Below are positions 22,933 to 51,471 of a stretch of 64,000 nt of DNA, in pieces (position 1 is the first letter of the stretch; every line of letters starts with the position of its first letter). The position numbers and the translations under genes were made by a program. The notes beneath the pieces are model-generated. The model worked only from the letters and a program-made list of their open reading frames with translations. It did no database searches and was not told where the DNA came from. Origin of the DNA: a virus; the IMG/VR virus record IMGVR_UViG_3300035703_000010, positions 62,001 through 126,000 of that record; one strand, written 5' to 3'.

Positions 22933-24825
22933 ATGAAGACTTTTACAATTGAACAACTTTCACAAGGCATTCGCGAAAAGCACGTCGGTGCCGAGCGTGC
23001 CCGTTTAACAGAAAAGTGGAGCCGCACAGGACTCCTCCGTGGCCTTGATGGTCAACGCCGCGAGATGATGGCACAACTTCTTGAAAACCAAGCAGCACAA
23101 GTCCTCAAGGAGAGCTCAGCTCTTTCTTCAGGCGGTGGAAACGTAACATCATCTGGACAAATCCAAGGCTTCTCTAACATCGCCTTCCCAATTGTCCGCC
23201 GAGTGTTCGGTGGCCTCGTCGCCAACGAGCTCGTTTCTATCCAACCAATGAGCCTTCCATCAGGTCTAATCTTCTACCTTGATTACACATATGGAACCAA
23301 CGTTGGTCAAGCAGCTGGACAAACCTCTGAGGCTACATACTCCAGAGGAACATCCATCTACAACAACCCAACCGGCCGCGGAGTCCAATCAGGATCTCTT
23401 GCAACTGGTGGTATGTACGACCTCGTTGGAACAGGTTACTCAAAGGTAACAGGTTCTCTTACAGCAGTCAACTTCGCTGCAGCTTCAGTTTACTCAGGAT
23501 CATGGGGCGGTGCAGATGGCTTAACATGGACAGACGGCTTAGTTCTTGGAACAGGAACAAGCTTCAGCGGTTCAAATGCTCGTTTAATGGACTTCGATAG
23601 CCAAGTTGAGACAGCACTCACAAACAACGATCTAGACGCACTCTTCGTCTATCTTCCAACAAGCGCATTAACCGGTGCTGATTTACTTGCAGTTGACCAA
23701 ATCGCTGTTTTCAGCGGCTTCGGTGCAAACGCAACAGCATGGGGAGATTCTTACCAAGGTGGAAGCGGCGTTCTCAACCTTCGTCGCCTCAACAAGCGTG
23801 GAACTCTTACAGGAACAGGAACATCATTGAAGTTCGTACCAGACGCACTCAATGGTAACTATGTCCAATTCGTTCTTAAGGGAGCAAACGGACTTTCTGC
23901 TCTCACATCAGCAACAGGTCGCGTTACCTTCGTCAAGTCTGATACAGTCTCTGCTCTTGGCGGAGACGGTGCAGGAGCCGGTGCAACACTCACAGTTCCT
24001 TCATTCGAATCTGATTTCGGAACGACACCATCTCCAGCAATCCCAGAGATTGACATCAAGATTGAGTCGCTCGCAATCACTGCAACAACCCGCAAGCTAC
24101 GTGCTCGCTGGTCACCAGAACTCGCACAAGACCTCAATGCATACCATTCAATGGATGCAGAGGTTGAGCTCACCTCAATCCTCTCAGAGCAAATCGCTCT
24201 TGAGATCGACCGCGAGATCCTCAATGACCTCGTTACACAAGCCAACGGCGCAAACTACTACTGGTCACGCGCTCCAGGCAAGTTCGTCAACAAGGTAACA
24301 GGAGCACCAGTTACTCTCGCATCTTCACTCTCTATCGGACCGGCCTTCACAGGTACAGTTCGCGAGTGGTACGAGACACTCGTTGAGACAATCATCGACG
24401 TTGCAAACACCATCCACCGCAAGACACTCCGCGGAAGTGCAAACTTCCTCGTCTGCGGTCCAGATGTTGCGACAGTCCTTGAATCATCTGTTCTCTACAA
24501 GCCAAAGTTCTCCATCGATGGTGAAGGACAAGTTGCTTCTCCATTCACAATCGGTGCAGAGGCAATCGGTTCACTCAGCAACCGCTTCACAGTCTACAAG
24601 GATCCTTACTTCGTTCGTAACAAGATCCTCGTCGGCTACAAGGGCGGCAGCTACCTCGAGACAGGCTACGTCTACGCACCATACGTTCCACTCATCGTGA
24701 CACCAACAATCTTCGCACCAGAAGACTTCACACCACGTAAGGGCGTGATGACTCGCTACGGTAAGAAGATGGTTCGCTCCGACTTCTTCGGAACAGTCAC
24801 TTGCTTGGACATGAACATCATCTGA
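22933..24825 (+). CDS. Major capsid protein precursor (gp23-like)
   Basis: A 630-residue precursor with ATG 22933 after an AGGAGA ribosome binding site. The N-terminus is a helical delta peptide, ending near VLKESS. L58-x-E60 fits the gp21 cleavage consensus, which would release residues 1-60. The HK97-type core follows, with GFSNIAFPIVRRVFGGLVAN at about 77-96 and typical gp23 C-terminal segments such as DPYFVRNKILVGYKGG and YVPLIVTPTIF. A Ser/Gly/Ala-rich insertion (about 125-370) may form a surface domain. The gene uses many C-ending codons, unlike most neighbours, as expected for the most abundant virion protein. A strong terminator follows. Confidence 0.96.
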   Translation: MKTFTIEQLSQGIREKHVGAERARLTEKWSRTGLLRGLDGQRREMMAQLLENQAAQVLKESSALSSGGGNVTSSGQIQGFSNIAFPIVRRVFGGLVANELVSIQPMSLPSGLIFYLDYTYGTNVGQAAGQTSEATYSRGTSIYNNPTGRGVQSGSLATGGMYDLVGTGYSKVTGSLTAVNFAAASVYSGSWGGADGLTWTDGLVLGTGTSFSGSNARLMDFDSQVETALTNNDLDALFVYLPTSALTGADLLAVDQIAVFSGFGANATAWGDSYQGGSGVLNLRRLNKRGTLTGTGTSLKFVPDALNGNYVQFVLKGANGLSALTSATGRVTFVKSDTVSALGGDGAGAGATLTVPSFESDFGTTPSPAIPEIDIKIESLAITATTRKLRARWSPELAQDLNAYHSMDAEVELTSILSEQIALEIDREILNDLVTQANGANYYWSRAPGKFVNKVTGAPVTLASSLSIGPAFTGTVREWYETLVETIIDVANTIHRKTLRGSANFLVCGPDVATVLESSVLYKPKFSIDGEGQVASPFTIGAEAIGSLSNRFTVYKDPYFVRNKILVGYKGGSYLETGYVYAPYVPLIVTPTIFAPEDFTPRKGVMTRYGKKMVRSDFFGTVTCLDMNII

Positions 24826-24851
24826 TAGTCGGAAACGACAATCTTTGATAG

Positions 24852-24890
24852 GAAAGGCCTTCGAAAGAAGGCCTTTCTTGTTTTTGTTTG
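24852..24890 (+). terminator. Rho-independent terminator after major capsid gene
   Basis: A perfect 11-bp stem (24852-24862 with 24867-24877) closes a GAAA tetraloop and is followed by a T-rich run to about 24889. The stem contains the AAGGCC core that recurs in three other terminators in the window. It ends the head operon. Confidence 0.9.
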
Positions 24891-25352: not shown

Positions 25353-25679
25353 GTGAAACGTCGCAGAACGTATGGTCAAGTCAAATTAAAGAAAGATCTA
25401 TGCGAAATTTGTAGCTGTGATCGATCTGCTGCATTGAACATACATCATATTATTCCAAGATGCGATCCTCGATGTTCAAATGACAACCACAACCTCGCTG
25501 TCGTTTGTCACACGTGTCACGACCTAATCCATGCAGGCGAAATTACAATTATTGGCGTTTATTCTTCTACGGGAGGAAGAAAGCTAATGTGGTTCCGTGA
25601 AGGAGAAGATCCTCCATTAGACAAGGAGTTCTGGAAGGTCAAAGAAAATCCTTTAGTATTAAGACGTAGGAAACATTAA
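25353..25679 (+). CDS. HNH endonuclease
   Basis: A 108-residue protein starting at GTG 25353 (an overlapping ATG at 25351 is out of frame). The zinc-stabilised HNH core is clear: Cys17-x2-Cys20, the catalytic His31-His32 (HHIIP), Asn44-Asp-Asn-His-Asn, and Cys52-x2-Cys55-His. Such small nucleases are either mobile homing-type enzymes or help packaging. It stands alone beside an accessory island rather than next to terminase, so a mobile origin is plausible. Confidence 0.8.
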   Translation: MKRRRTYGQVKLKKDLCEICSCDRSAALNIHHIIPRCDPRCSNDNHNLAVVCHTCHDLIHAGEITIIGVYSSTGGRKLMWFREGEDPPLDKEFWKVKENPLVLRRRKH

Positions 25680-25720
25680 TCTTTTTTATAATTTTTTTGT
25701 GAAGGAAATATAATTGTTCT

Positions 25721-27184
25721 ATGTCAACAAGAAAAAGTGATTTTCTAAAAAGAGTTACGATCTTTTCATGTCTGCTGGGAACTTTGGTTTATGGTTGCGT
25801 TAGACCAAATCCAAATAAATTAGCAGGAGATACGTCTGCTGTTTTTAATGATTGTCCGACACCCTCAGACGTCGTTACAACCGTTGATGTTGTAACAGGA
25901 ACAACAACTGCTGGTGTTGAATCATCATCTAGTAAGACGTCAGGAATTTCAGCTGTTTCTACTGGTTCTGGTGAACAGAAACAAGAAGAGACCGAACTTG
26001 ATAATAGAGAGCTAGACTATTCAGAAGCTCTTCGCACTGCCAGCTTTTTAATAGTCGGAGATTCTCCTACTCTTTTTGAGATTTATGAATTAGGAGATCT
26101 TCCGCTAGATCAAAAAAAGCAAAAGTATGAAGAGTTAATTGATTCTAAGTTATCTGATCCAAGATTTGCTGATACGTTAGTTGAATTTTTTAAGTACACT
26201 TTTAAGATGGGTGGTGCTGCAACGACACCAGGAGAACCGACAAGAGACACTGCACCGACTTTTGCAGCAAGGACTGTTTATGAAGAAAAAGATTGGAGAA
26301 ACATTTTAACTCAAGATTCTAATACATGTCCTACATACAATCCTATGACAAAAGTATTTTCAGACGGAGATTGCAATAATCTTCCTGCTGGAATGAAACA
26401 TTCGGGAATTCTCACAGACCCCGGCGCACAAAGCTTATATTACGGTAATTTATCTTTTAGAAGAAATCGTTTCTATCATGAAACTTTTCTGTGTTTGTCC
26501 GGTAACGAACAAGCCGGTGGAGAACCGACTGATCAGCCACCTGTTGTATCACCTTGTAGTGGAGTAGATCCTATACCCGGATATCAAAATAAATGGCCTG
26601 TTAATGAAATTGCAGGAGAATGCAACGGTGGTAGAGTAGATTTTCATGCGTATAACACGAGCAACGTTTGTGCAAATTGCCATGCAACGTGGAATCATCG
26701 TTCACCTTTATTCAGTCAATTCGATTCTAGAGGAATTTTTCAACCATTGACGCCATCTGGAGAATATTCTGTATTTGTTCCAGTTGAAGGATCTCCTAGA
26801 GCAAAAATGTCAGATTGGTTGTGCGTAGATCCTGTTAAATGCCCTAATGGAGGAAACAATTTTACTGCATGGAAAAAAACTATGAAAGTTGATGGAGTTG
26901 AAGTTCCTGCTTTTGCATCAACTATTAATGAGTTAGGATCTCAAATGGCTAAAGATGATGAAGTCATTGAATGTGCGGTCAAAAGAATTTGGAATTATTC
27001 CATGGGCCGTGCTGACATAACTGAGATAGGCGGTAGAAGTTGGGTAAACTTACCTGATCGAAAAGATAAAAATGAAGAATTAATGACTATGAGCAAGTTA
27101 GTTTCTCAGTTTAAAGGAAATGGATACAACTTGAAGAAAGTTTTTAGAACAATTTTGGTATCGGATGACTTCACGAGGTTTTAA
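25721..27184 (+). CDS. Exported lipoprotein with c-type heme motif, DUF1588/DUF1585-like
   Basis: A 487-residue protein. The N-terminus is a signal peptide (FLKRVTIFSCLLGTLVYGC) ending at a lipobox-like Cys26, followed by a Ser/Thr-rich linker. From about residue 95 it resembles planctomycete and Bdellovibrionota cytochrome proteins. It has a helical segment FLIVGDSPTLFEIYELGDLP, a single CANCH heme-attachment motif (Cys317, Cys320, His321) within NVCANCHATWNHRSPLFSQF, and a C-terminal DUF1585-like part with NYSMGR and NLKKVFRTILVSDDF. The protein would sit in the outer membrane or periplasm and bind heme c. It is the first of three linked genes. Such a gene in a phage head region is unexpected. 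Family calls are from memory of motifs. Confidence 0.75.
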   Translation: MSTRKSDFLKRVTIFSCLLGTLVYGCVRPNPNKLAGDTSAVFNDCPTPSDVVTTVDVVTGTTTAGVESSSSKTSGISAVSTGSGEQKQEETELDNRELDYSEALRTASFLIVGDSPTLFEIYELGDLPLDQKKQKYEELIDSKLSDPRFADTLVEFFKYTFKMGGAATTPGEPTRDTAPTFAARTVYEEKDWRNILTQDSNTCPTYNPMTKVFSDGDCNNLPAGMKHSGILTDPGAQSLYYGNLSFRRNRFYHETFLCLSGNEQAGGEPTDQPPVVSPCSGVDPIPGYQNKWPVNEIAGECNGGRVDFHAYNTSNVCANCHATWNHRSPLFSQFDSRGIFQPLTPSGEYSVFVPVEGSPRAKMSDWLCVDPVKCPNGGNNFTAWKKTMKVDGVEVPAFASTINELGSQMAKDDEVIECAVKRIWNYSMGRADITEIGGRSWVNLPDRKDKNEELMTMSKLVSQFKGNGYNLKKVFRTILVSDDFTRF

Positions 27185-27185
27185 G

Positions 27186-28187
27186 ATGAAAATGCTGAAC
27201 AACAAATTTCTAAGTACATTAACGTTATTATTTATTGTTTCATGTGGTTCCGATGCTGCTGATATAAATGAAGGAGATTGTGAACAGCAAAAACAAAGTT
27301 CTTCAACTTTGTCTTCTCAGTCTTCTTCTGTAACTTCTTCTGTAACTTCAGGCGGAGGTGAGAAACAAGATCAACCTGTTTCTACAGCAGGTGCTGGAGG
27401 ATCTTCTCAATTACCTTCATACGATGTACCAACTCCTGATGAAATATCTTCTAGATTGCATTCATGTCATAAACTTTCTTATTCTCAGCTTGGAAACTTC
27501 TTAAGAGCTCGAGGAGCAGCGATTCCGTTTGGTAGCGTTTCAGATGTTAGAACTACTCAAGTTTCAGTGTTCGGAATGACTCAAACATTAGGATCTATAT
27601 TCGGCGGAAGCGGAGCGTCATGTGAGATGGCTGTTACTGTAGCAAATGGAACAAACGATCCTATTTGCCAAGGAAATGAAGTTTGTTTTTGCAACCAAGA
27701 CGATAAGATGAATCAAGTTAATCGTAGCTGTCTAGACGTAGGAAATAACTCTCCTGATGCCGCAGATGGATATTGCGTCGCAAAACCTGCTACTGCAGGT
27801 TATTTGTACTTTACTGGTAAAGATGCATTAGGAGTTCCTAAATTAGATTCTAGATTAGGAGAGAAAGATGAACATACGACTGCATCTGCAATGAGGTTGA
27901 TGGATATTTTCATTCAATCAGCGCCACAAATTATTGCAAATATTAGCGATCCTTCTAAAGCTCCTGCATGTACATTAAATGGTAAAAACAAACCGATGTT
28001 TGCTGCTGATGGAAGTTGTATAGAGGAATCAGTAAGCTGTTTGATAGGAATTCCAGCTACTGAAGATCATATGCTTCTTTGTAATTTATTGGTTGGAAAA
28101 GCTAATTCAAATGATGCGACTGATGTAATGAAAAAAAGAAATATCGCAGTATCTGTTTTGTTGTCTGCAGCACATTCATGTCAATGA
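27186..28187 (+). CDS. Lipoprotein, partner of the cytochrome-like and Tat proteins
   Basis: A 333-residue protein. ATG 27186 is preferred because MKMLNNKFLSTLTLLFIVSC is a clean lipoprotein signal peptide with cleavage before Cys20; an in-frame ATG at 27165 lies within the previous gene. A Ser-rich and Gly-rich linker (about 35-80) follows. The mature part has many cysteines and a conserved-looking LHSCHKLSYSQLGNFLRARG near residues 92-111. Only 1 bp separates it from the preceding stop and 13 bp from the next start, so the three genes form one operon. No enzyme domain is recognised. I infer an envelope partner of its neighbours. Confidence 0.7.
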   Translation: MKMLNNKFLSTLTLLFIVSCGSDAADINEGDCEQQKQSSSTLSSQSSSVTSSVTSGGGEKQDQPVSTAGAGGSSQLPSYDVPTPDEISSRLHSCHKLSYSQLGNFLRARGAAIPFGSVSDVRTTQVSVFGMTQTLGSIFGGSGASCEMAVTVANGTNDPICQGNEVCFCNQDDKMNQVNRSCLDVGNNSPDAADGYCVAKPATAGYLYFTGKDALGVPKLDSRLGEKDEHTTASAMRLMDIFIQSAPQIIANISDPSKAPACTLNGKNKPMFAADGSCIEESVSCLIGIPATEDHMLLCNLLVGKANSNDATDVMKKRNIAVSVLLSAAHSCQ

Positions 28188-28200
28188 AGGAAAATAAAAA

Positions 28201-29805
28201 ATGTCAAACTGGAAATTAAAAGATCTTCGTAATGATAGACGTAGAACATTCTTAAAAATGTGTACTGTCGCAGCTGCAGTCGCAGGAATAGAAAGAACAA
28301 AATTACTAAATTTCCTTGCTGATGAAGGCGGCTATGGTTTAGCAGAAGCAGCTGGATCTACTTATGGACGATCATTGCTTGTTCCTTCGCCAAATGGAGT
28401 TTATGCATGGTTCCAAGAATTGTGGCCTGTTGCTGATGTTGGTCTAAAAGCTTGTCAAAACGCTAATGTTCCTGGATTGTCTTCAAACTTTGGAGGAACA
28501 TCATCTTATCTTTACACGTCTCAAAGAGGATATAACCCAGCAAATGGATACAGAGGAACTTATACAACTGGTAAAGGAAATCAAATGCCATCTTTGCCGA
28601 TGGGCGTAAAATCTTGGGACGGAGGAGACAAACCTTTCTTTTATGGTCCTGATGCTCCATGGTTTGACCATGTTTCTGGAAAACCGAAATATCCTGTGAC
28701 AGCATTCATGTCAGGAAAAGATGAAACTCATACAGAATTTCCAATTTCTCACATGTCTTTATCTGGAAATTCAACTCTTCAAGCAGCATTAGCTTCATTA
28801 GGCGCAGCAGGATCTTCTGCAATAGTTCCTGTCTTAGGTATAGATCCAGTAAAATATGGTCGTGCCCCTGGAGCTCCTGAGGTTGCGACAGTTCCAAGTT
28901 CTTTAGGTATGATTGACTTGTTTAATAGCGCTGCAAGCCAATTTACATTATTGAATAAAACTGATCAAGAATTGTTTGAGACATATTACAAGGCTCTTGT
29001 AGGTTTGAGAAAGTCTTCAAATAAATCATCATGGATTCCACAGATGTCAATAACCAAGAATTCTGCTAGAATCATTGGGTTAAATTTTGCATCTCAACTT
29101 ACTCCAACATCTCAAGATTTGGTCGATTTTGGTATTCAAGAAATGGTTGACAATGTAACTTCTAATTCAAATTATATGACTGCTGCTCAAAGAGCCGGAA
29201 TAGAAGAATTTGGAAGGGTTTTAATTGTAGTTGCAAAAGCATTTACGCTAGGATTATCTAAAACTGCAATTGTAGCCTTATCTCCAGGTCCGACTAGCGA
29301 CACGACCTTCACGGATCCTCACGTTACATTTGATAATTCTACCTTATTAAACCAAGGAAGAAATACTACGAAACATTTAGGGAAGGTTCTAGATGGTTTC
29401 TATAACTATTTATCGCAACAGGTGGATCCTGAAAGCCCTTCTGAGAAGTTAGATAAAAGCACTGTCTTTGTTGCTTATGGAGACACTCCTCATACTCCGT
29501 TAGTAGGGTCTACATGGCCTGACGCAACTCCTGATGCTTGTAATTGGATGTATGTTATGGATCCTCGTGGTCATATAAAGAATGGATGGTTCGGCCATGT
29601 TTATGCTAATAAAGTTAATAATCGAAATGCAGTAGGGTTTAATCCTTTAACAGGTATGGATGATGTCACAAAGACGTCTGAGCAAGTTTCTGCTTTTGCT
29701 TCAACTGCAACAGTATTTTCAGTAGCAAACGGAGATTCTAATAAGGCATCTGAATATGGAAATTCTCCTAACATCGTTTCAGGATTGATTAATAGCATAA
29801 AATGA
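28201..29805 (+). CDS. Tat-exported DUF1501/DUF1552-like protein
   Basis: A 534-residue protein. The N-terminus carries a twin-arginine export signal (RRRTFLK, Arg14-Arg15) followed by an Ala-rich stretch. Downstream, VPSPNGVYAWFQE (about 61-73) recalls the PNGV motif of DUF1552, and the C-terminal VFVAYGDTPHTPLV and the later GHIKNGWFGHVY resemble the tail of DUF1501 proteins. These families belong to the alkaline phosphatase/sulfatase-like superfamily and are usually encoded beside cytochrome-type DUF1592/1588/1585 proteins, as here. It would fold in the cytoplasm, possibly with a cofactor, and cross the membrane through Tat. The start follows GAAGGA. No function is established for the families. 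Confidence 0.75.
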   Translation: MSNWKLKDLRNDRRRTFLKMCTVAAAVAGIERTKLLNFLADEGGYGLAEAAGSTYGRSLLVPSPNGVYAWFQELWPVADVGLKACQNANVPGLSSNFGGTSSYLYTSQRGYNPANGYRGTYTTGKGNQMPSLPMGVKSWDGGDKPFFYGPDAPWFDHVSGKPKYPVTAFMSGKDETHTEFPISHMSLSGNSTLQAALASLGAAGSSAIVPVLGIDPVKYGRAPGAPEVATVPSSLGMIDLFNSAASQFTLLNKTDQELFETYYKALVGLRKSSNKSSWIPQMSITKNSARIIGLNFASQLTPTSQDLVDFGIQEMVDNVTSNSNYMTAAQRAGIEEFGRVLIVVAKAFTLGLSKTAIVALSPGPTSDTTFTDPHVTFDNSTLLNQGRNTTKHLGKVLDGFYNYLSQQVDPESPSEKLDKSTVFVAYGDTPHTPLVGSTWPDATPDACNWMYVMDPRGHIKNGWFGHVYANKVNNRNAVGFNPLTGMDDVTKTSEQVSAFASTATVFSVANGDSNKASEYGNSPNIVSGLINSIK

Positions 29806-32182: not shown

Positions 32183-32401
32183 ATGCAAAGAGTAGATCTA
32201 TACCAACCACTAATTCATTCTAGAGTAGGAGCTCCTCCTCTTGTTATCAACGTTGGAGTGAATCGTTCAGGAGCAGAAACGATGGGAGGTCCAATTGAAA
32301 ATGCAATTAGACCAGAAGCATATGTTCTTTTATCTGCATTGCCAGACGAATTAAAAGAAAGAGTTAAAACTGCTATACAAGCTTTAATTTCATCTATGTG
32401 A
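32183..32401 (+). CDS. Small hypothetical protein upstream of endolysin
   Basis: A 72-residue protein starting at ATG 32183 after AAAGGA. It has a Pro/Gly/Val-rich first half and a helical end (ELKERVKTAIQALISSM). There is no transmembrane segment, so it is not an obvious holin. Its stop overlaps a possible GTG start of the endolysin gene. Confidence 0.55.
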   Translation: MQRVDLYQPLIHSRVGAPPLVINVGVNRSGAETMGGPIENAIRPEAYVLLSALPDELKERVKTAIQALISSM

Positions 32402-33195
32402 TTTTTATGATTCAAATTCTTCGATTAGGGTCTTCAGGAGATGACGTAGAAAGATGGCAAAATTTTTTACGAGGCCAATCTCCAAATAGTTCTATTATAG
32501 TAACAGGAAACTTTGATTCGAAAACTGAATTAGAGACTAAGTCTTTTCAATCTCGTAAAGGTTTGGTTCCTGATGGAATTGTCGGTCCTAAGACTTTGTC
32601 AACTGCATTACAAGCAGGATATCCTTTAATGGATGACCCTACTGCATCGATGGATGGTCCAAACTGGCCACCTAGGCCTTCTGAAAATCCTTTATCGTCA
32701 GTTGAACGAGAAAAAGTTTTTGGTAAATTTTCACATGTAGCAGCTCCTACACAATCCAATCCAGAAGCGATTACAATTACGGGAGATTGGATTAAAAAGA
32801 ATATTTCAAATGTAAACATTCCACAATTAAGTGGAACTCCCGGAGCTCCTAAGTCGTGTAATATTACGATTCATAATAGCATTTCAAAACAGTTTGTTGA
32901 TCTTTTTAATGAATGGGATAATGCTGGATTATTGTATCTTATTATGTCTTGGGGAGGTTCTTGGTCTCCAAGATTTATAAGAGGATCTAGAACAACATTA
33001 TCTAATCATGCATGGGCAACAGCATTTGATATTAATGTTCAATGGAATGGTTTAGGTGTTCAACCTGCTTTAAGAGGTGAAACAGGATCTGTTAGAGAAC
33101 TTGTAGAGATTGCATATAATCATGGATTCTATTGGGGTGGATGGTTCCAAAAAAGACCTGACGGTATGCACTTTGAAGCTTTTAAAATACTTTGA
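32398..33195 (+). CDS. Endolysin: peptidoglycan-binding domain plus M15 D,D/L,D-peptidase
   Basis: A 265-residue protein (GTG 32398 overlapping the previous stop, or ATG 32407). The N-terminal 65 residues are a PGRP/peptidoglycan-binding type 1 domain: LRLGSSGDDVERWQNFL, then VPDGIVGPKTLSTALQ. The C-terminal half is an M15/VanY-like zinc peptidase with SNHAWATAFDIN (His and Asp ligands, about residues 201-212) and DGMHFEAF (last zinc His with Glu, about 255-262). It should cut peptide crosslinks in the cell wall at lysis or entry. There is no signal peptide, so release needs a holin, which I do not see here. Confidence 0.85.
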   Translation: MIFMIQILRLGSSGDDVERWQNFLRGQSPNSSIIVTGNFDSKTELETKSFQSRKGLVPDGIVGPKTLSTALQAGYPLMDDPTASMDGPNWPPRPSENPLSSVEREKVFGKFSHVAAPTQSNPEAITITGDWIKKNISNVNIPQLSGTPGAPKSCNITIHNSISKQFVDLFNEWDNAGLLYLIMSWGGSWSPRFIRGSRTTLSNHAWATAFDINVQWNGLGVQPALRGETGSVRELVEIAYNHGFYWGGWFQKRPDGMHFEAFKIL

Positions 33196-34377: not shown

Positions 34378-36747
34378 TCAGGCTGCGTTGTGGATTGCGA
34401 CGAAGATTCTATCTTCAGCAACTGTAGCTACCTTGAGTTGAAGCTGTGTTGTTGAAGAGATGATGTAGTCGTCTCCGTATGAGAGGCGAACGCCGTTGAG
34501 GTAAACGTCCATTGCAAGCTTCTTAGCAGCATCATCAGCGACTGAAGCAGCGCGGAGGGTACCGACTGAAGAGAATGCGATGTTTGTGTCAGCTGCGACG
34601 ACTCCTGGTAAGAAGGCATCTTGCTTGAAGTTACCACCTGAAGCTGCAGAGATGATCGCATCAACGAGTGATACACCAGCTCCGAATTGTGCTTCAAATT
34701 GTGCTTGGTCGCCATCGCTTGCTAACTTGAAGGATTCATCGCCACGTGCAACGAGCATGAGATCAACTCCTGCTGCAGACTTGAGTTCCATTGCACCAGC
34801 GCTGATTCCTGCATGGCCAAGTTCTGTTCCTTCTGCGTTTCCGAAGTAAGAACCAGACATCCAAGCCTTGACGAGTGCTGCACCATTGAGGTCTGCTGGC
34901 GTAGTACCGTCTGCATTGTGTGCAACTTGTGCGAAGATGAGCTCTCCTGCTCCACCGTCTTGTCCGACCACGAGGTCATAAGAAGCACCAGCACCCTTGC
35001 TGAGGACGATACCGGAATCAACTGATCCGTTAGATCCTGTTGCGAGGTAGATGAATGCATCCTTAACCTTCATGTTTTCGGTTTCAACGTAGGTGAATGC
35101 ACCCTTAACGAGGAGGTTTCCATCGACTTGAGCATTACCAGAAACACGAATGTCTCCTGTAACGTCGAGCTTGGATCCGTCGAATGTTAACTTGGCTTCA
35201 TCCTTGATTGAACCGTCTGAATCAACGATATAGAGGCGTTGTGCAACGTCGCCATCGATGCTGATCTTGTTTGAGGTCAAGTCTGCGTTGACGTCGAGGG
35301 CTGCTCCGTTGATAGCTGCACCTGCAGAGAATGTAGCTGCGCCGGTTACGCCGAGTGTTCCACCGACTGTTGCGTTGTTTGTAACGCCGAGTGATGAAAG
35401 TGTAGATGCACCAGCGGAGAGTGTGCTGGAGAGTGTTACTGCTCCTGTTACTCCGAGTGTGCTTCCGAGTTGAGCTGCGCCAAGAACTCCGAGTGTACCA
35501 GCAATGGATGTGTTACCTGTTCCGTCTGCAACGACGAACTTGTCTGTATCCATTGTTAATCCACCATTGAGTTGTGCTCCTCCTGCGACGGATAATGAAC
35601 CGGCTGTTGCAACGTTTCCGGTTCCGTCTTGTACGGAGAATGCACCGGAATCCATGGACAATCCACCGTTAAGTGTTGTTGCACCGGTTACGGTGAGTGT
35701 GCTTGCCATAGAAACGGCTTGAGCAAATCCAGCCATTCCTGCAACTTGAAGTGAACCAGAGAGTCCTGCTGGTCCGCTAGCGTAGATTCCGCCTGTGATT
35801 GACATTGCGGATCCGTCGAAGATGAGTTTGGATTCATCCTTGAGGGAACCGTCTGAGTCAACGATGTAGAGACGTTGTGCAACATCGCCATCAATCTTGA
35901 GTGCAGATGCTGAAACTACGTTGTTGACATCAAGGATGCCGTCGATTCTTGCAGAGCTTAACATGTGAACGCTGCCGGTGACTGCGAGTGTACCAACAAG
36001 TTCAGAGTTTCCTGCAACTGCGAGATCTGACATTGTGCTTAAGTCGCCCATGATTGCTGCATCTTCGGTGACTGTGAGGTCGCCTGTGATAGCAGCTCCA
36101 CCGGAGATTGAAGCTCCTCCTGCGGAAATTTCGAGGCCTGCTGATCCGCTAATTGCTGCAGCAAATTTTGCAATTCCTGCGACGTCTAATGAACCAGAGA
36201 GTCCTGCTGGACCGCTTGCATAAAGTCCACCTGTGATTGACATTGCAGAACCATCAAAAACGAGTTTTGATTCATCTTTGATTGAACCGTCTGAGTCAAC
36301 GATGTAGAGACGAGAAGCAACATCACCATCGATGCTGATTTTGTTTGCAGTTAAATCAGCATTGACATCGAGTGCTGCACCGCTGATGGAAGCGCCGTTT
36401 GCGAATGTAGCTGCTTGAGCAACTGCAAGTGAACCGGAAACTCCAACTGCGCCAGCAAAGTATGCTGCTGAATCGAAATCAGCAACTCCAGCGACGTCAA
36501 TTGCGCCTTGGAAGTTTGCTTTTGTTCCGTCCATGTGAACGGCTGTGTAGATTGCTGAAAGGTTTTGTGAACCAGCAAGGTCGTCGTACCAGTTTGTTTG
36601 ACCGAGTACGCGCTTGACCTGCGAACGAAGTGCGTCAAGGTCTCCTGCGAGTGTAGATCTTGAAGCTAATGATGAACCTGCTCCGAGTGCATCATTAAAA
36701 GAAAGCGAACCACTAATTTGTGCTTGCTGAACTTTAGTAAAAGCCAT
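34378..36747 (-). CDS. Long repetitive fiber protein
   Basis: A 789-residue protein on the minus strand. ATG 36747 is chosen because AGGTGGT lies just upstream; a longer frame to 36810 adds a poor N-terminus. The body is Ala/Gly/Ser-rich with dozens of short repeats of the form G-x-L-x-V-x-G-x-A, as in trimeric beta-helical fibers. A 62- to 72-residue cassette with RLYIVDSDGS occurs three times. The last 200 residues differ and end in VYLNGVRLSYGDDYIIS and a short tail. This looks like a tail or head fiber that contacts the host. Codon use matches the capsid gene, suggesting abundant expression, which is unusual for a receptor fiber and might point to a whisker or head fiber. Confidence 0.75.
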   Translation of the reverse strand: MAFTKVQQAQISGSLSFNDALGAGSSLASRSTLAGDLDALRSQVKRVLGQTNWYDDLAGSQNLSAIYTAVHMDGTKANFQGAIDVAGVADFDSAAYFAGAVGVSGSLAVAQAATFANGASISGAALDVNADLTANKISIDGDVASRLYIVDSDGSIKDESKLVFDGSAMSITGGLYASGPAGLSGSLDVAGIAKFAAAISGSAGLEISAGGASISGGAAITGDLTVTEDAAIMGDLSTMSDLAVAGNSELVGTLAVTGSVHMLSSARIDGILDVNNVVSASALKIDGDVAQRLYIVDSDGSLKDESKLIFDGSAMSITGGIYASGPAGLSGSLQVAGMAGFAQAVSMASTLTVTGATTLNGGLSMDSGAFSVQDGTGNVATAGSLSVAGGAQLNGGLTMDTDKFVVADGTGNTSIAGTLGVLGAAQLGSTLGVTGAVTLSSTLSAGASTLSSLGVTNNATVGGTLGVTGAATFSAGAAINGAALDVNADLTSNKISIDGDVAQRLYIVDSDGSIKDEAKLTFDGSKLDVTGDIRVSGNAQVDGNLLVKGAFTYVETENMKVKDAFIYLATGSNGSVDSGIVLSKGAGASYDLVVGQDGGAGELIFAQVAHNADGTTPADLNGAALVKAWMSGSYFGNAEGTELGHAGISAGAMELKSAAGVDLMLVARGDESFKLASDGDQAQFEAQFGAGVSLVDAIISAASGGNFKQDAFLPGVVAADTNIAFSSVGTLRAASVADDAAKKLAMDVYLNGVRLSYGDDYIISSTTQLQLKVATVAEDRIFVAIHNAA
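35152..35301 (-). repeat. Fiber cassette, copy 3
   Basis: Third cassette, about 50 residues, with ALDVNADLTSNKISIDGDV and RLYIVDSDGS. It diverges after FDGSKLDVTGD and leads into the non-repetitive C-terminal part. Confidence 0.8.
35722..35909 (-). repeat. Fiber cassette, copy 2
   Basis: Second cassette, about 62 residues, with IDGDVAQRLYIVDSDGS and the FDGSAMSITGG plus ASGPAGLSGSL continuation seen in copy 1. The opening ALDVNADL segment is replaced by a different lead-in. Confidence 0.8.
36160..36375 (-). repeat. Fiber cassette, copy 1
   Basis: First of three related cassettes in the fiber gene. It encodes about 72 residues starting at ALDVNADLTANKISIDGDV and including RLYIVDSDGS and FDGSAMSITGG. 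Copy 3 shares the N-terminal half most closely; copy 2 shares the C-terminal half. Confidence 0.8.
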
Positions 36748-36779
36748 GTTACCACCTAATTTAGTTATTTTTGCATAGT

Positions 36780-36800
36780 AATCAAGCACCACGCTTGATT
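36780..36800 (-). promoter_or_regulatory. Leader hairpin in fiber gene 5' region
   Basis: AATCAAGC (36780-36787) pairs with GCTTGATT (36793-36800) over a 5-base loop, 33 bases upstream of the fiber gene ATG. A short stem-loop near the 5' end of a highly expressed message can stabilise it; that role is inferred. Confidence 0.45.
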
Positions 36801-36819
36801 TTCTACGCAATGATAAGTA

Positions 36820-40280: not shown

Positions 40281-43200
40281 ATGGCTGAGCAAGTTTTTAG
40301 GTCTCCTAATTTTTTTGAGAGAGAAATAGAGTTAAAAGCACCACCAAGCGGAGGTCCTGTAGGCGTACCAGCTGGTGTAATCGGAATGTCAAATAAAGGA
40401 CCGGCTTTTGTACCGGTCACGGTTGCCAATTTTAATGAATTCGTTAGCGTGTTTGGAGACTTAGATCCTAAAAAGTTCGGTCCTTATGCCGTAAATGAGT
40501 TTTTAAAGAATAGAACAGCATTAACTTATATGAGAGTGTTAGGCGCAGGATCAAATAAAACTGCTACTGACATTTCTTCCACTGCATTAACTGGAAGAGT
40601 AAAAAATGCTGGGTTTAAGCTTGAAGGTAATTTAGCATCTCATGATGCTCAAGGTCGTCATGCTGGTGCAGTTCAGTTTTTAGTTGCAGATCATACCCTA
40701 CAAACTAACGAAGCGTATGGAATGCCCATGTTTACTGATAATGATTCACGTTCACAAACTAGCAACGTCAATCTAATCAGAGGAGTTGTCATGTTAGCAT
40801 CTGGTGCTAGAATGATAGTTCTCAATGGAAATGAAAATGTTCCACCTGCATTCGTAGGAGCTACTACGATTGATGACGCAGCTCAAGTAAAAAGTGGAAA
40901 ATTTAAGTTAGTTATTTCATCTGCATTAGGATCAACATTCGCATTTGATGATAAGCTACCTGGAATAAAGGTTTATACTGCATCCTTAAATCCTTCTAGC
41001 GACGATTATTTTGCTAAAGTATTAAATAGAGATCCTGAAAAGTTTGAGCAATACCAACATTTACTTCATTCTGATTTTGCAGTTGATGATGAAATTGCAA
41101 AAGTTGTTGATGATGATTACGTTGCAGTGTTGTCAGGATCTGCATCAACAAGCAATGTTTCAGGTGAACCAACTACTGAGTTTAGAAAAGCTTTTGGTGC
41201 CTTTGATACTAGATTTACTTCACCAAAGACTCCATCCTTCATCTCTCAACCATTCGGTTCTACTGAATACGATTTATTCCAAGTTGAATCATTAGATGAT
41301 GGTGCATATGCAAATAGCCTCTACAAGATCTCAATAACAAACTTAAAGGTTTCTGAGAATGAAGCATATGAGTATGGAACGTTTAACGTTCAAGTCCGCG
41401 ATTGGAATGACACAGATTTAAATCCTGCAGTTTTAGAAGAATTCGTCAACTGTTCTTTAGATCCTGATTCAGACAATTACATCGGAAAAGTTATAGGCGA
41501 TAGAAAAGTAACTTATGATTTTGATCAAGACATTCTTTCCGAAAGAAGAATCATCACGAGCGGCAAGTATGACAATGTGTCAAAATACATTAGAGTTATA
41601 ATTTCTCAAAATGTTGAAGATAAAAAAGTTCCAGCTGCCTCGTTGCCATTTGGATTCAGAGGGCCAGAATTACTAAAGACTAATGATACCTTGAAAGACG
41701 GAGAAATTGCAGCAACTGGAGCTGCTGCCTCATCATTAAAGAGATTAACCGGATTGTTTGCTTCTGATGCAGTCGGTTTCCTCTCACAATCAATATTACC
41801 ACCTGTCCCCTTTAGATTCAAGGTAACGAAAGGTCCGATGACAACACCCGCATGGGATGGTGATCCAGGACCACAAGAGGTTGCATCTCCTCAATTCTAT
41901 TGGGGCGTTAAGTTTGAAAGAAATGATTCACCATTAAATTCAAACATTTCTGAAGTAAAGAATAGCCTCTTAGAAAGCTATACGAAGTTTAGCGGAATCA
42001 AAAAGTTAGATGTTCTTGTAACTGGCTCAGGCGCGGATACATTTAACAACAACAAATTCTCATTATCTAATGTAGCATTTTCAGCAGGAACGATTGCTCA
42101 ATTAACAGGCACCGTTCGATCTCACATGAAAGAAGCTGCATACATCAGAAATGCAAAAGTTGATCCAACAACATACACGATTAATGATGCTGTATTAGGA
42201 GAAAGAATAACATTCGCTTCTCTATTATCAAATGGTGAACCATACGAGTTTAACAAGTATTCATCTTTTGCTAAGTTCACTACATTCATGCAAGGAGGAT
42301 TTGATGGATTAAACATCTTAGATCCTGCTGCATCAAGGATGAATGATAAAGCAACTTCTTTCGAAACTCCTCTTGGAGGAGCATCATCTACTTTCACATC
42401 TCCTGGAATGTTAACAAACCTTGCCGGAGTAGGAGTAGATAATAACGCGGTAAATTCATACATTACTGCAATTGATGTTATGACGGATCCCTTACAAGTC
42501 AACGTCAATTTATTGGCAATACCAGGAATTCGTGAAGATTACATAACGAACTACACGTCAAAGAAGATTAGAGACTATGGCTTAGGCATGTATATCATGG
42601 ATCTTCCAAACTACGATGACGATGACAATCGTATTTATGATGATTCAACAGCAAGAATCAACATTGAAAACACTGCAGCAACTTTTGAGGCAAGATCATT
42701 TGACAACAATTATGTTGCAACTTATTTCCCAAATGTTTACGTAAATGATGTAACTAACAATAGATACGTTAAAGTTCCATCATCTGTCGCTGCTTTAGGA
42801 GCGTTAGGGTTTAATGATAAAGTTGCATATCCGTGGTTCGCACCAGCAGGATTCAATAGAGCAGCTTTAGACTTCGTTAACAACGTAGAAGTTAGACTTA
42901 ACGTTTCTGATAGAGATAGACTCTATGATGCTAGAATTAATCCAATTGCAACTTTCCCAAGATTGGGATTTGTAATTTATGGACAAAAGACATTACAAAT
43001 AAGAAAATCAGCATTGGATAGAGTCAACGTTCGTAGATTACTTTTAGAAGTCAAGCGTTTAATCATCAACATAGCAAACAGAATTGTGTTCGAACAAAAC
43101 ACACCAGCTGTTCGTAACAAGTTTGTTGCAGACGCAATACTTCAATTAGGATTAATTCAAGCACAAGCTGGTATTGAAGCATACCAAGTTGTCATGAATG

Positions 43201-43331
43201 AAACGAACAATACGCAAGAAGATGTTGATCTAAATAGACTAAATGGAAGAATCGTCGTTGTTCCGACAAGAGCAATTGAATTTATTGCAATTGACTTCAT
43301 CGTAACAAATTCAGGCGTTCAGTTCGTTTGA
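40281..43331 (+). CDS. Tail sheath protein, paralogue 1 (gp18-like)
   Basis: A 1016-residue contractile sheath protein with AAGGAG before ATG 40281. The N-terminus carries the sheath motif GVPAGVIGMSNKGPAFVPVT, and the C-terminal core has SALDRVNVRRLLLEVKRLI and RIVVVPTRAIEFIAIDF. AYPWFAPAGFNRAAL is the conserved aromatic patch. T4 gp18 has 659 residues, so the added length is mostly in the outer domains (about residues 120-600). It is the first of three tandem paralogues and is the most divergent in its outer domains. Confidence 0.92.
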   Translation: MAEQVFRSPNFFEREIELKAPPSGGPVGVPAGVIGMSNKGPAFVPVTVANFNEFVSVFGDLDPKKFGPYAVNEFLKNRTALTYMRVLGAGSNKTATDISSTALTGRVKNAGFKLEGNLASHDAQGRHAGAVQFLVADHTLQTNEAYGMPMFTDNDSRSQTSNVNLIRGVVMLASGARMIVLNGNENVPPAFVGATTIDDAAQVKSGKFKLVISSALGSTFAFDDKLPGIKVYTASLNPSSDDYFAKVLNRDPEKFEQYQHLLHSDFAVDDEIAKVVDDDYVAVLSGSASTSNVSGEPTTEFRKAFGAFDTRFTSPKTPSFISQPFGSTEYDLFQVESLDDGAYANSLYKISITNLKVSENEAYEYGTFNVQVRDWNDTDLNPAVLEEFVNCSLDPDSDNYIGKVIGDRKVTYDFDQDILSERRIITSGKYDNVSKYIRVIISQNVEDKKVPAASLPFGFRGPELLKTNDTLKDGEIAATGAAASSLKRLTGLFASDAVGFLSQSILPPVPFRFKVTKGPMTTPAWDGDPGPQEVASPQFYWGVKFERNDSPLNSNISEVKNSLLESYTKFSGIKKLDVLVTGSGADTFNNNKFSLSNVAFSAGTIAQLTGTVRSHMKEAAYIRNAKVDPTTYTINDAVLGERITFASLLSNGEPYEFNKYSSFAKFTTFMQGGFDGLNILDPAASRMNDKATSFETPLGGASSTFTSPGMLTNLAGVGVDNNAVNSYITAIDVMTDPLQVNVNLLAIPGIREDYITNYTSKKIRDYGLGMYIMDLPNYDDDDNRIYDDSTARINIENTAATFEARSFDNNYVATYFPNVYVNDVTNNRYVKVPSSVAALGALGFNDKVAYPWFAPAGFNRAALDFVNNVEVRLNVSDRDRLYDARINPIATFPRLGFVIYGQKTLQIRKSALDRVNVRRLLLEVKRLIINIANRIVFEQNTPAVRNKFVADAILQLGLIQAQAGIEAYQVVMNETNNTQEDVDLNRLNGRIVVVPTRAIEFIAIDFIVTNSGVQFV

Positions 43332-43388: not shown

Positions 43389-46300
43389 ATGGCACAGCTC
43401 AAATTTGGAAGCGCAGGGGTAACGACTAGAGAAATTGATTTAACAGGACCAGTTGAAACGTCACCTACAGGTGTTCCTGCAGGAATAATTGGTACCGCAG
43501 TGAAAGGACCAGCATTCGTTCCTTTAACTTATGGTACTTTAAATGACTTTTTTGCAAAATTCGGTGCTAGTGATTCTAAGAAATTTGGACCAATGGCTGT
43601 TGCCGAATGGCTTAGAAGAGCAACATCAGTTACTTATCTTAGAGTTTTAGGCGTTGGTGATGGTAAGAAAAGATCTTCTAGCGGTCAAACTGCAGGTGAT
43701 GTAACTAATGCAGGGTTTACAGTTGGAGAGCAACTTCCTTCTTCAAACGGAACATTATCATCAAATCCTTATGCAAATGAAAATGGCGTTTTGGGAAGAA
43801 CATATTTCCTCGGATGCTTTATGTCAGAATCAGTAGGTTCTACATTATTCAATGGCGCAGGATTACAAGGAACAGGTAGCGTTAATGGAATTGGTATAAA
43901 CACAGCAGTTCCAATCGTCAGAGGTGTGTTGATGGCACCTTCTGGAGTAGTTTTACGCTTGTCTGCTTCTGCAGCAGGATTAGATTCAAACAAACCATCT
44001 TCATCTTTAGTTGGATCAGATGCAACCGCAAAAGGAACATCATTAGGTTCTTTGGTGTTTGGATCGACACATTCAAAACAGGAATTTACTCTTCTCCTTA
44101 ACGGACACAAAGGAACAGATTCTTCATATCCGAATGTTTTGACTGCATCATTTGATGTAACATCTGCAAACTATATTAGCAAGGTTTTAAATACCGACCC
44201 TTATAAGATCCAGCAAGCAGGACATTATTTAGCAGCACATTGGGATATACACCCAACTCTAGCTGTAGTCACGGGAGTAGGAGCAGTTTCAGAATCTCCA
44301 GTTAATAACAGCGAAAGATCTGTTTTCTTACTCACATCCTCTTTAGCAAGAAACATTGGATCTTCTGAAGTTCCAAACTATGAAGGTTTCAGAGACAGAT
44401 TTACAAATGCAAAAACTCCTTGGGTAATTTCTCAAAAGTTTGGTGGAACGCCAGAAAATCTATTTAAGCTTCACGCACTTGATTCTGGCGGTGGGGTTTC
44501 AAATAAATTTAAGATTTCTATTTACAATATAACTCCATCTTCTGATCCTTTGAACAAGTATGGATCATTTAGCTTAGCAATAAGAAACTTAACTGACACA
44601 GATATTGATCAAAAGGTTTTAGAAAAATGGGAAGGAATCAACCTAGATCCTTCTTCAGATAGATACATTTGTAAGGTCATTGGAGATATTGACGCATACT
44701 ATGATTTTGATCGTGATGAAGCAGCTCAAAAGCTTGTTATCGAAGGAAATTACGAGTTAAGATCAAGATATGTTCGCGTTGAAGTTTCTTCTGCTGTTTC
44801 AGAACAAGCAGTTGATCCTACTGCAATCCCAATGGGATTCAGAGGAATTTCACATTTGGTTACTTCAGGTTCATCTCCGCTTGCAAGCCTTGGAGGAGTT
44901 GATTCTTCGGCTTTATCAAATGCAACATTCACTAGAAACACTGTTGAACCACCACTTCCATTTAGAAATCATCTAAATGACGGAACTGGACAACAGACAC
45001 AAGTTAATTCAAGATATCATTGGGGTTCAAAGTTTGAACACATAATCAGTTTAACAGAACAAAATAGCTCTGTTTTACAAGACAAATCTTTCAATAGCTT
45101 TACGAAACATTTCCCATTGCATTCGATTACTAACATGAACTTTGTCGTTGCAGATAACTCTGGTGCTGCAGACACTGTTGCAAATGGAATTATTGATGTT
45201 GATAGATTCTGCAATAACTTGTTTACTCTAGAAAATGTCAAGATCTTAACAGGATCAAATGGAACAGTCGCACAAAATGACGATTGGAAGTATGCAACTT
45301 ACATTAGACAAGGAAACATTGTTGCAAATGACGCAGCGAAGACAAGAGCTGTTAATGTAAGCGATTTTTCTAATTCTCAGAATAGAAAGTTCCTTAAATT
45401 CTCTTTCATCATGCAAGGAGGATTCGATGGAGTTAATATCTTCGATAAAGATGAAGCAGAAATTAACAATGCAGCCGTTGTTGCAGACATGGATGATGTA
45501 AACAGAGGCCGTTCATCTGGCCCAAGCGTATCATCATACTTGAAGGCTCTTGAAGTTATGAAGAATACAACAAACGTTGATATTCAACTTCTTGCAATAC
45601 CTGGAATTAGAGCTCCAATTGTTACTGATGAAGCAATAAGAGCAACGGAAGAACGCTTTGATGCTCTCTATATCATGGATATAGAACAAGTTGATAAAGA
45701 CGGAAACTTGATAAACATTACTTCAAATGTTAAACCTTCAGTTACTGAGACAGTAGCGCAACATAAGGCAAGAAACCTTAACACATCTTTCGCTGCGTCT
45801 TACTTCCCTGACGTTTTAATCAAGGATCCATCATTACAAACAAATTCAGTCATCGTTCCACCTTCAGTCGTCGTCATGGGCGCTTTAGCATTGAACGATT
45901 CATTAGGATATCCTTGGTTCGCACCAGCAGGATTGACAAGAGGCGATCTACCTTCTACTCTTGAAACAAGCATCCAATTGAAGGATTCAGATTTGGATTC
46001 TCTATACGATGAAGACATCAATCCAATCTATGCTCCAACCACTACGACAAGAGGTGGTACGGGTCCAAAGGGTGGAGTTGTTGTATGGGGACAAAAGACG
46101 ATGCTTCAATCAGCATCTGCTCTTGATAGAATTAACGTAAGACGTCTTCTTATCGACATTCGTCGACAAGTTAGAGAGATTGCTCAAACAATCATCTTCG
46201 AGCCAAACCGCGAAGCGACCTTGGCAAGATTTACAGCTGCAGTTACTCCACGTCTTCAAAGAATTCAAGCTCTTGCAGGTCTTGAGAGATTCCGCGTGAT

Positions 46301-46439
46301 TATTGATTCTTCAACGACGACGCAACAAGACGTTGAGAACAACACGGTTCGCGGTAAGATCTTCTTACAACCCACCAAGACGATTGAATTCGTATCATTG
46401 GATTTCGTTGTGGCAAATAACCTACAACAAGTACAGTGA
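43389..46439 (+). CDS. Tail sheath protein, paralogue 2 (gp18-like)
   Basis: A 1016-residue sheath paralogue. GVPAGIIGTAVKGPAFVPLT opens the chain, GYPWFAPAGLTRGDL and SALDRINVRRLLIDIRRQV lie in the C-terminal core. It shares long outer-domain segments with paralogue 3 (for example NPYANENGV and LGCFMSES near residues 120-140) that paralogue 1 lacks. GTAGGAGCGAAATAA precedes the ATG. C-ending codons increase toward the 3' end. A strong terminator follows, so this is probably the end of the main sheath transcript. Confidence 0.92.
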   Translation: MAQLKFGSAGVTTREIDLTGPVETSPTGVPAGIIGTAVKGPAFVPLTYGTLNDFFAKFGASDSKKFGPMAVAEWLRRATSVTYLRVLGVGDGKKRSSSGQTAGDVTNAGFTVGEQLPSSNGTLSSNPYANENGVLGRTYFLGCFMSESVGSTLFNGAGLQGTGSVNGIGINTAVPIVRGVLMAPSGVVLRLSASAAGLDSNKPSSSLVGSDATAKGTSLGSLVFGSTHSKQEFTLLLNGHKGTDSSYPNVLTASFDVTSANYISKVLNTDPYKIQQAGHYLAAHWDIHPTLAVVTGVGAVSESPVNNSERSVFLLTSSLARNIGSSEVPNYEGFRDRFTNAKTPWVISQKFGGTPENLFKLHALDSGGGVSNKFKISIYNITPSSDPLNKYGSFSLAIRNLTDTDIDQKVLEKWEGINLDPSSDRYICKVIGDIDAYYDFDRDEAAQKLVIEGNYELRSRYVRVEVSSAVSEQAVDPTAIPMGFRGISHLVTSGSSPLASLGGVDSSALSNATFTRNTVEPPLPFRNHLNDGTGQQTQVNSRYHWGSKFEHIISLTEQNSSVLQDKSFNSFTKHFPLHSITNMNFVVADNSGAADTVANGIIDVDRFCNNLFTLENVKILTGSNGTVAQNDDWKYATYIRQGNIVANDAAKTRAVNVSDFSNSQNRKFLKFSFIMQGGFDGVNIFDKDEAEINNAAVVADMDDVNRGRSSGPSVSSYLKALEVMKNTTNVDIQLLAIPGIRAPIVTDEAIRATEERFDALYIMDIEQVDKDGNLINITSNVKPSVTETVAQHKARNLNTSFAASYFPDVLIKDPSLQTNSVIVPPSVVVMGALALNDSLGYPWFAPAGLTRGDLPSTLETSIQLKDSDLDSLYDEDINPIYAPTTTTRGGTGPKGGVVVWGQKTMLQSASALDRINVRRLLIDIRRQVREIAQTIIFEPNREATLARFTAAVTPRLQRIQALAGLERFRVIIDSSTTTQQDVENNTVRGKIFLQPTKTIEFVSLDFVVANNLQQVQ

Positions 46440-49500: not shown

Positions 49501-49697
49501 CTGGTGATGCTCTGTCTTCGATGCAATCTTCTTTTGGACTAGAAAATTATAAAATCGAAATTGATGCTTCTACGACGACGCAAAATGATATTGACAACAA
49601 CACGATTAGAGGAAAAATTTATATTAAGCCTGCTAAATCCATCGATTATGTATCAATAAATTACATTGTATCGAATAAACTACAGTCTGAAGTTTGA
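46578..49697 (+). CDS. Tail sheath protein, paralogue 3 (gp18-like, divergent)
   Basis: A 1039-residue sheath paralogue lying beyond a terminator. The N-terminal sheath motif is weaker (LVIGTSPNGPAFVPVGF), and the aromatic patch WFAPAG of paralogues 1 and 2 is replaced by FSAPAG. The C-terminal core is kept: LSRINVRRMLLEARRRIRVI and KIYIKPAKSIDYVSINYIV. The outer domain is clearly related to paralogue 2. No ribosome binding site is evident before ATG 46578, codon use is more AT-rich than in paralogue 2, and it is separated by a terminator. It may be expressed less, or fill a special position in the sheath. The last 37 bp overlap the antisense gene. Confidence 0.88.
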   Translation: MPNNNNSPGVSSKDAGSISNVDVNVSSQTYTLVIGTSPNGPAFVPVGFSNAADFRSVFGVPNVVGSSITPIGRVTNYAPFGAYQWLQNQNSLAFMRVLGVGNGKRRVTLGTNAGDVIGAGFTVGENQPSGSLKALGSNPYANENGVPGRTYFLGCFMSESANSTFFNGAGLQGTGSVNGIGVNTSVPIVRGILMAPSGVILRLSASATGQDSSAPLSTQFAIDSSAKGATLGDVKLFNDNGASLQQFVILLNGHKGTEDYPNVITASFDIKSNLYLTRVLNTTASLIQEAGHYLAANWDIHPAIAVLTGSGVVASGAGSPSNSSRVFSTERSAFLLTSSLSRDVGSTSVPNYENFRDRFSSATTPWIISQKIHGKYINLFKLHSLSDGEQGSYKIIISNIKPASQDSEYDFCTFDIIVRSIYDFDETISALEKYTVSLDPKSDIYISKVIGDKYTYFDFDRPDNNQKLVVEGNYPNRSTRFRVEVSDEVSNDRLPSNILPMGFRGLPHIITSGSNVMAPLGGHDASALINSSFLTNLVVPPIPLTENIATFSNGTKTPSDVRRWGLKFDHVTNVEQQNNFYDANLSTILKHFPNHSTTNINFSVSDNQGTPDTSQLGIVDADRFCNNVFTLENIKITTGSAGYATKEGWSNAVYIRNGIISEDMTAKTRRVNVSDFNDIISRNYLTFQTSLYGGFDGTSIFDVDEFNMTDAAVASDMNDPNRGREFGPSVMSYLKALEIINDTTTIDTSLLAIPGIRAPIVTDAAINVAESRMDCLYLMDIEQFDGSGNRIDLSTRLPYDKSFVPDIQNTINEFDSRSLNTSYAAAYYPDVELKIDENLYGISTVIVPATVAALGAFSVNDTQSSFSAPAGNSRGAALNVLSTVSKLKKSDENSLYEKNINYLIASNTSVGGEQTGIIVQGQKTLGKSRSSLSSLSRINVRRMLLEARRRIRVIAMRLLFDPNRDSIVSKFVLQAGDALSSMQSSFGLENYKIEIDASTTTQNDIDNNTIRGKIYIKPAKSIDYVSINYIVSNKLQSEV

Positions 49698-51367: not shown

Positions 51368-51471
51368 CACTCATAATATATTCTTAAGTTGAAAAAAAGT
51401 GATCAAAAAATATCTCTGCTTTTCTTGCAAGAATATTTATGAATACTCACCTCATATAGGAGAATCTTACA

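Follow-up and report, generated by a model that had tools for sequence, protein, structure and literature searches.

Why should a phage carry, between its capsid gene and its lysis region, three genes for exported proteins, one of them a predicted heme protein? This question is raised by a stretch of 64,000 nucleotides (hereafter the window), which covers bases 62001–126000 of a 204,651-base IMG/VR virus record. The phage gene content includes a Gp23-type capsid protein, a portal protein, a large terminase, a head protease, a tail-sheath stabiliser and an endolysin. An earlier note made from the letters of this DNA had described an envelope-directed cassette of a lipoprotein with a heme motif, a second lipoprotein and a protein with a twin-arginine signal. 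All three open reading frames (ORFs), here named cyt, lip and tat, are present between the capsid and endolysin genes and carry the export signals that were described (Table 1).

Table 1. Positions of the cyt-lip-tat trio and of neighbouring features in the window.
Feature	Position	Strand	Remarks
Gp23-type major capsid protein	22933–24825	+	Profile match E = 3e-77; context, outside the module
Intrinsic terminator	24847–24882	+	16-bp stem, strong; directly after the capsid gene
HNH endonuclease	25353–25679	+	Adjoins the cassette
Promoter-like element	25685–25714	+	TTTATA-18-TATAAT; −10 ends 6 nt before the cyt ATG
cyt	25721–27184	+	487 aa; exported lipoprotein with signal peptide, lipobox VYGC and one CANCH heme motif
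lip	27186–28187	+	Cys-rich lipoprotein, lipobox VSC
tat	28201–29805	+	534 aa; twin-arginine signal RRRTFLK
Endolysin	32398–33195		Downstream of the trio, same direction

The three genes are tightly packed. For lip the ORF tool lists a start at 27165; we chose the ATG at 27186, which fits the relatives and falls one base past the cyt stop codon (27182–27184), so that the gap of 1 bp given in the earlier note is correct. The tat start, which is preceded by AAGGA, lies 13 bp past the lip stop, again as described. Both lipoproteins have a lipid anchor behind long Ser/Thr/Gly linkers and neither has Asp at position +2, which by the E. coli rule would probably place them in the outer membrane, although this rule may not hold in Polyangia.

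Transcription of the cassette seems to be arranged independently of the capsid gene, as suggested by the strong terminator that separates them. In 14 of 17 phages a −10 element TATAAT (one mismatch or none) lies 5–8 nt ahead of the cyt start codon, whereas such an element precedes 2.9% of all ATGs at the same loci; the binomial p for this enrichment counts related phages as independent. With the pattern used, a Shine-Dalgarno-like match at cyt was seen in only one of the 17 phages, and cyt of the window has no clear Shine-Dalgarno sequence. Since the −10 element lies so close to the ATG and no clear Shine-Dalgarno sequence is seen, the cassette transcript is probably leaderless. For 47 starts, the 60 nt upstream were searched for the T4-type late promoter TATAAATA, with no exact copy found, and an Rfam search of the window gave no match. 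A small ORF and then the HNH endonuclease gene lie between the terminator and cyt; the HNH gene is also found in relatives that do not carry the trio, and in a second type of trio phage, described below, it lies 3′ of the trio.

To which families do the three proteins belong? The cytochrome of the window shows weak matches to DUF1585 (E = 3e-4; 20.8 bits, 25.8 needed), DUF1549 (E = 0.004; 17.6 bits, 29.8 needed) and DUF1588 (E = 0.14; 12.9 bits, 27 needed), the last of which spans the CxxCH site, and thus lies below all three curated Pfam cut-offs. Its homologues score higher: one that is 45–49% identical (L053) is above the cut-offs for DUF1549 (44.4) and DUF1585 (29.5), another that is 70% identical (L047) is above that for DUF1585 (29.5), and bacterial homologues pass DUF1549 and/or DUF1585. 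By these profile matches cyt is a divergent PSCyt2/PSCyt3/PSD2 (DUF1549/1588/1585) protein, in line with the cytochrome families that the earlier note had named.

The assignment of Tat to DUF1501 or DUF1552, proposed in the same note, fared worse. Neither the window Tat nor its bacterial homologues match Pfam DUF1501 (PF07394) at E values up to 1. A profile–profile comparison of the full-length protein with DUF1501 proteins of related bacteria gave a probability of 93% (E 2.5e-7), partly due to the signal peptide; the mature part gave 29% (E 6e-4) and the C-terminal part 57% (E 1e-4), with reversed controls at E 0.3–0.4. These values are suggestive of Tat being a remote relative of DUF1501. 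DUF1552 (PF07586) was rejected: there is no Pfam match and no HxxSHH motif, and with the mature part at E 0.24 the alignment covers the signal peptide only. Motifs of its own, DPH and GDTP, are found in all or nearly all Tat homologues. Beyond the Tat signal, Tat and lip have no relative in Pfam, NCBIfam, PHROGs or the PDB, and searches of solved structures with Tat, cyt and lip gave no significant match. AlphaFold models of Tat and cyt (pLDDT 35 and 43) were too poor for use. None of the three families has a known catalytic domain or substrate.

Is the trio a genuine part of a phage genome, or an assembly join to a bacterial contig, as the earlier note had considered? Searches of IMG/VR with each protein recovered 22 other distinct complete trios. 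All of them keep the gene order, and wherever the contig of a trio phage extends to the capsid gene, this gene is the upstream neighbour of the trio. These copies in the same context exclude an assembly chimaera. It had also been stated that no phage with this set was known. This holds for INPHARED, where the Tat and cyt queries found no match, and the literature searches, which covered work other than preprints, found no phage with a cyt-lip-tat set; it does not hold for IMG/VR, where a whole phage clade carries the trio.

Within this clade the proteins are well conserved. Identity to the window proteins is 80–88% for Tat, 67–82% for the cytochromes and 63–71% for lip; the capsid proteins of these phages are 76–90% identical, a level of conservation that tat roughly matches. 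The signal RR.FLK is kept in all 17 aligned Tat proteins, CxxCH (as CANCH or CSNCH) in 15 of 15 cytochromes and the lipobox in 16 of 16 lip sequences; 12 Cys in cyt and 14 in lip are invariant in the aligned sets. Based on few unsaturated pairs, dN/dS is ~0.06 for tat, ~0.07 for cyt and ~0.2 for lip. Judged by these values, the trio is held under purifying selection in a phage clade.

The position of the trio suggests two possible roles that are tied to the phage itself. One is lysis preparation or timing, in which the proteins would act on the envelope, for example on its polymers, together with the lysis genes that lie downstream in the same direction. However, the endolysin homologue switches strand or goes undetected among the trio phages while the trio stays, and no hydrolase domain was found in the trio proteins, which makes this role improbable. 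The other is that of a virion or adsorption component, with the proteins in or on the particle. The nearby capsid gene and the capsid-like conservation of tat would fit such a component, yet the Sec/lipoprotein and Tat signals are of bacterial style and would route the proteins out of the cytoplasm in which the particle is assembled. We regard this option as highly improbable.

Relatives that do not carry the trio also exist, with capsids 68–84% identical and with other genes in the interval, and on the capsid tree the presence of the trio is patchy. This pattern fits gain, exchange and loss, events that the low branch support of the capsid tree does not allow to be counted. One trio gene is seen without the others only at contig ends, with one exception (L023 1–1743), in which only the C-terminal half of tat is left behind a zinc-finger/endonuclease-like sequence; this is either an eroding copy or an assembly join. 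The trio-free relatives together with this broken copy indicate that the trio is not essential for the clade. In one trio-free relative a protein that looks patatin-like by eye (L143 5379–6254) lies downstream, ahead of a head–tail adaptor homologue.

Where does the trio come from? When one genome of each prokaryote species was scanned, ten close Tat homologues were found (50–76% identity by tblastn); the window Tat is up to 77% identical to the Polyangia proteins. All ten loci are in metagenome-assembled genomes (MAGs) of freshwater Polyangia, titled Polyangiaceae, Polyangia, Myxococcales or Deltaproteobacteria. In all ten lip adjoins tat, and cyt lies upstream in the order cyt-lip-tat wherever it is visible (five near full-length, one cut by the contig end). 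The records are MAGs, but the loci have ordinary chromosomal neighbours and a GC content of 63–71%, both of which speak for a location on bacterial chromosomes. The phage genes have ~38% GC, which indicates that the phage copy is long adapted. A search of PLSDB plasmids with the bacterial Tat gave no match. In a sample of the class Polyangia some Tat homologue was found in 73 of 290 genomes and the close type in few, and some hosts carry two or three close copies of the trio.

The trees agree with a bacterial source. In the Tat tree the phage copies form one clade (support 99/98) that is nested in the freshwater bacterial clade, with one bacterial copy (G003a) as the nearest to the phages (91/90). 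A constraint that keeps the bacterial copies together and places the phages outside was rejected (p = 0.005). The phage copies are also one clade in the cyt tree (99/96); taken by itself, the lip tree gives no support for a single phage clade. By this phylogenetic evidence the window trio was shown to be captured from Polyangia (Myxococcota) and fixed in a Gp23-type phage clade. Two features expected of host-derived auxiliary genes are found here: the phage copies are nested in host homologues and selection maintains the trio within a real phage genome. From the captured genes alone, we infer that the phage host belongs to the Polyangia, and the trio thereby ties a large uncultivated freshwater phage clade to these hosts.

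A second capture came to light when IMG/VR was searched with a wider Tat alignment. Besides the close trio, the bacterial hosts have a distantly related paralogous operon, which opens with a di-heme lipoprotein (two CxxCH; L222 152–1381, L221 2676–3956 and L224 2703–3989) followed by cyt, lip and tat. A trio of this second type, cyt2-lip2-tat2, is found in three phage contigs (L281, L282 and L284) and is 52–58% (cyt), 61–63% (lip) and 57% (tat) identical to the paralogous operon of G001; its Tat is only ~35% identical to that of the window. It lies in the interval between the capsid and HNH genes, and the two second-type contigs that reach the capsid gene (L284/L285) encode capsids 83% and 78% identical to that of the window. 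The Tat tree groups the second-type copies with two other Polyangia genomes (98/93), well apart from the first phage clade, and a single origin of all phage Tat genes was rejected (AU p = 0.0001). By these trees, related phages were shown to have taken a paralogous bacterial trio in the same region, separately from the first capture. No di-heme gene was detected next to the second-type phage trio, so that the phages kept the three-gene unit and not the four-gene operon. This double capture defines a minimal unit, which to selection is one working thing, and points to a short list of candidate residues.

One could still ask whether the trio is passive cargo in a homing-endonuclease hot spot, of no benefit to the phage. 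HNH genes are present at the site, relatives carry other cargo or none, and one copy (L023, if not a join) is eroding beside endonuclease-like sequence. Passive cargo does not account well for the low dN/dS over a deep clade, the frames that stay open in the aligned complete copies, the conserved promoter-like element or the fact that a unit of this kind was captured independently a second time. This explanation is disfavoured, and we give it the smallest chance of those considered.

A more probable explanation, to which we assign a probability of roughly 0.5, is that the trio encodes an auxiliary envelope complex that supplements or replaces a redox complex of the host envelope. In the infected Polyangia cell the three proteins would be made from the phage-specific promoter. 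Cyt and lip would leave by Sec and be lipidated, probably to reach the outer membrane; cyt would receive one heme from the maturation system of the host, and Tat would be exported in a folded state. Together they probably form one complex in the host envelope during infection, a reading suggested by the three genes having stayed linked in each of the two captures and also in the examined bacteria. By supplementing or replacing the host's own complex, this auxiliary gene set would most likely sustain an electron-transfer or oxidation step in the envelope while infection proceeds. The di-heme lipoprotein was not found in the second-type phages, so that host partners may be required for electron flow.

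The main rival is superinfection exclusion or receptor masking, in which the phage trio would alter or replace the host surface trio, or its target, and so block adsorption or injection by competitors. In its favour, all three proteins leave the cytoplasm and two carry a lipid anchor, some hosts have several close copies of the trio, and two independent paralogous captures could reflect competition. Phage lipoproteins such as T5 Llp and phi80 Cor are reportedly used in exclusion, and like them the trio includes phage-encoded lipoproteins that are predicted for the outer membrane. However, those are single small proteins with neither heme nor a Tat partner, by which description they are set apart from the trio, and exclusion factors are usually one small protein and not a three-protein set with heme. 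Exclusion would also not explain why a heme protein and a folded Tat partner are needed, PADLOC gave no match for the trio, and the trio is strongly conserved and not diversifying. We consider exclusion unlikely. With dN/dS this low, a working complex is a better fit than a surface decoy that varies rapidly. A related and bolder idea, which we also hold to be unlikely, is a new class of phage envelope-takeover system, in which a heme-containing complex of three proteins, acquired on two or more occasions from paralogous operons of Myxococcota, would remodel the host surface against competing phages or predators rather than give metabolic support.

How does the auxiliary complex favoured here compare with known systems? 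Cyanophage auxiliary genes such as psbA are nested among host genes, were captured repeatedly and are under purifying selection. The trio resembles them in having close host homologues, in its nesting in host trees, in more than one capture and in purifying selection; it differs in being a complete exported three-gene set with Myxococcota hosts and no part in photosynthesis. The PSCyt2/PSCyt3 cytochromes of Planctomycetes and Verrucomicrobia have an unknown function, each PSCyt type is found beside its own family of unknown genes, and such cytochromes and partners are spread over several bacterial phyla (PMC5615132). Like these, the trio cytochrome is encoded in a tight cluster with partner genes, and it has a single-heme PSCyt3-type site, a PSCyt2-like N-terminus and a PSD2-like C-terminus. 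Unlike them, the phage cytochrome is below the Pfam cut-offs, its Tat partner belongs to neither DUF1501 nor DUF1552 in Pfam, and the trio is carried by phages and includes an extra Cys-rich lipoprotein. Tetrapyrrole biosynthesis genes likewise let aquatic phages supply a function related to heme, but they encode cytoplasmic enzymes (PMC11480375), whereas the trio carries the exported heme protein itself.

Several other features of the phage genome were observed. The GC content is ~50% in the capsid gene and ~35% in the genome stretch around it; pairwise dS is much lower for the capsid gene than for the trio genes. A large ORF of high GC on the minus strand (34378–36810) varies strongly among relatives and has weak bactofilin and Arr-ms matches along with a PHROGs match to a structural protein. 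Three very large ORFs follow one another at 40281–43331, 43389–46439 and 46578–49697 (1016, 1016 and 1039 aa). Weak matches to tail-sheath models were seen for the first of them, and the other two may be sheath paralogues. On the minus strand, the ORF at 49661–51370 weakly matches a restriction-endonuclease family, the Mom DNA-modification family and a homing endonuclease model. Outside the window, an ORF at G000 192910–194520 resembles a GroEL chaperonin by eye.
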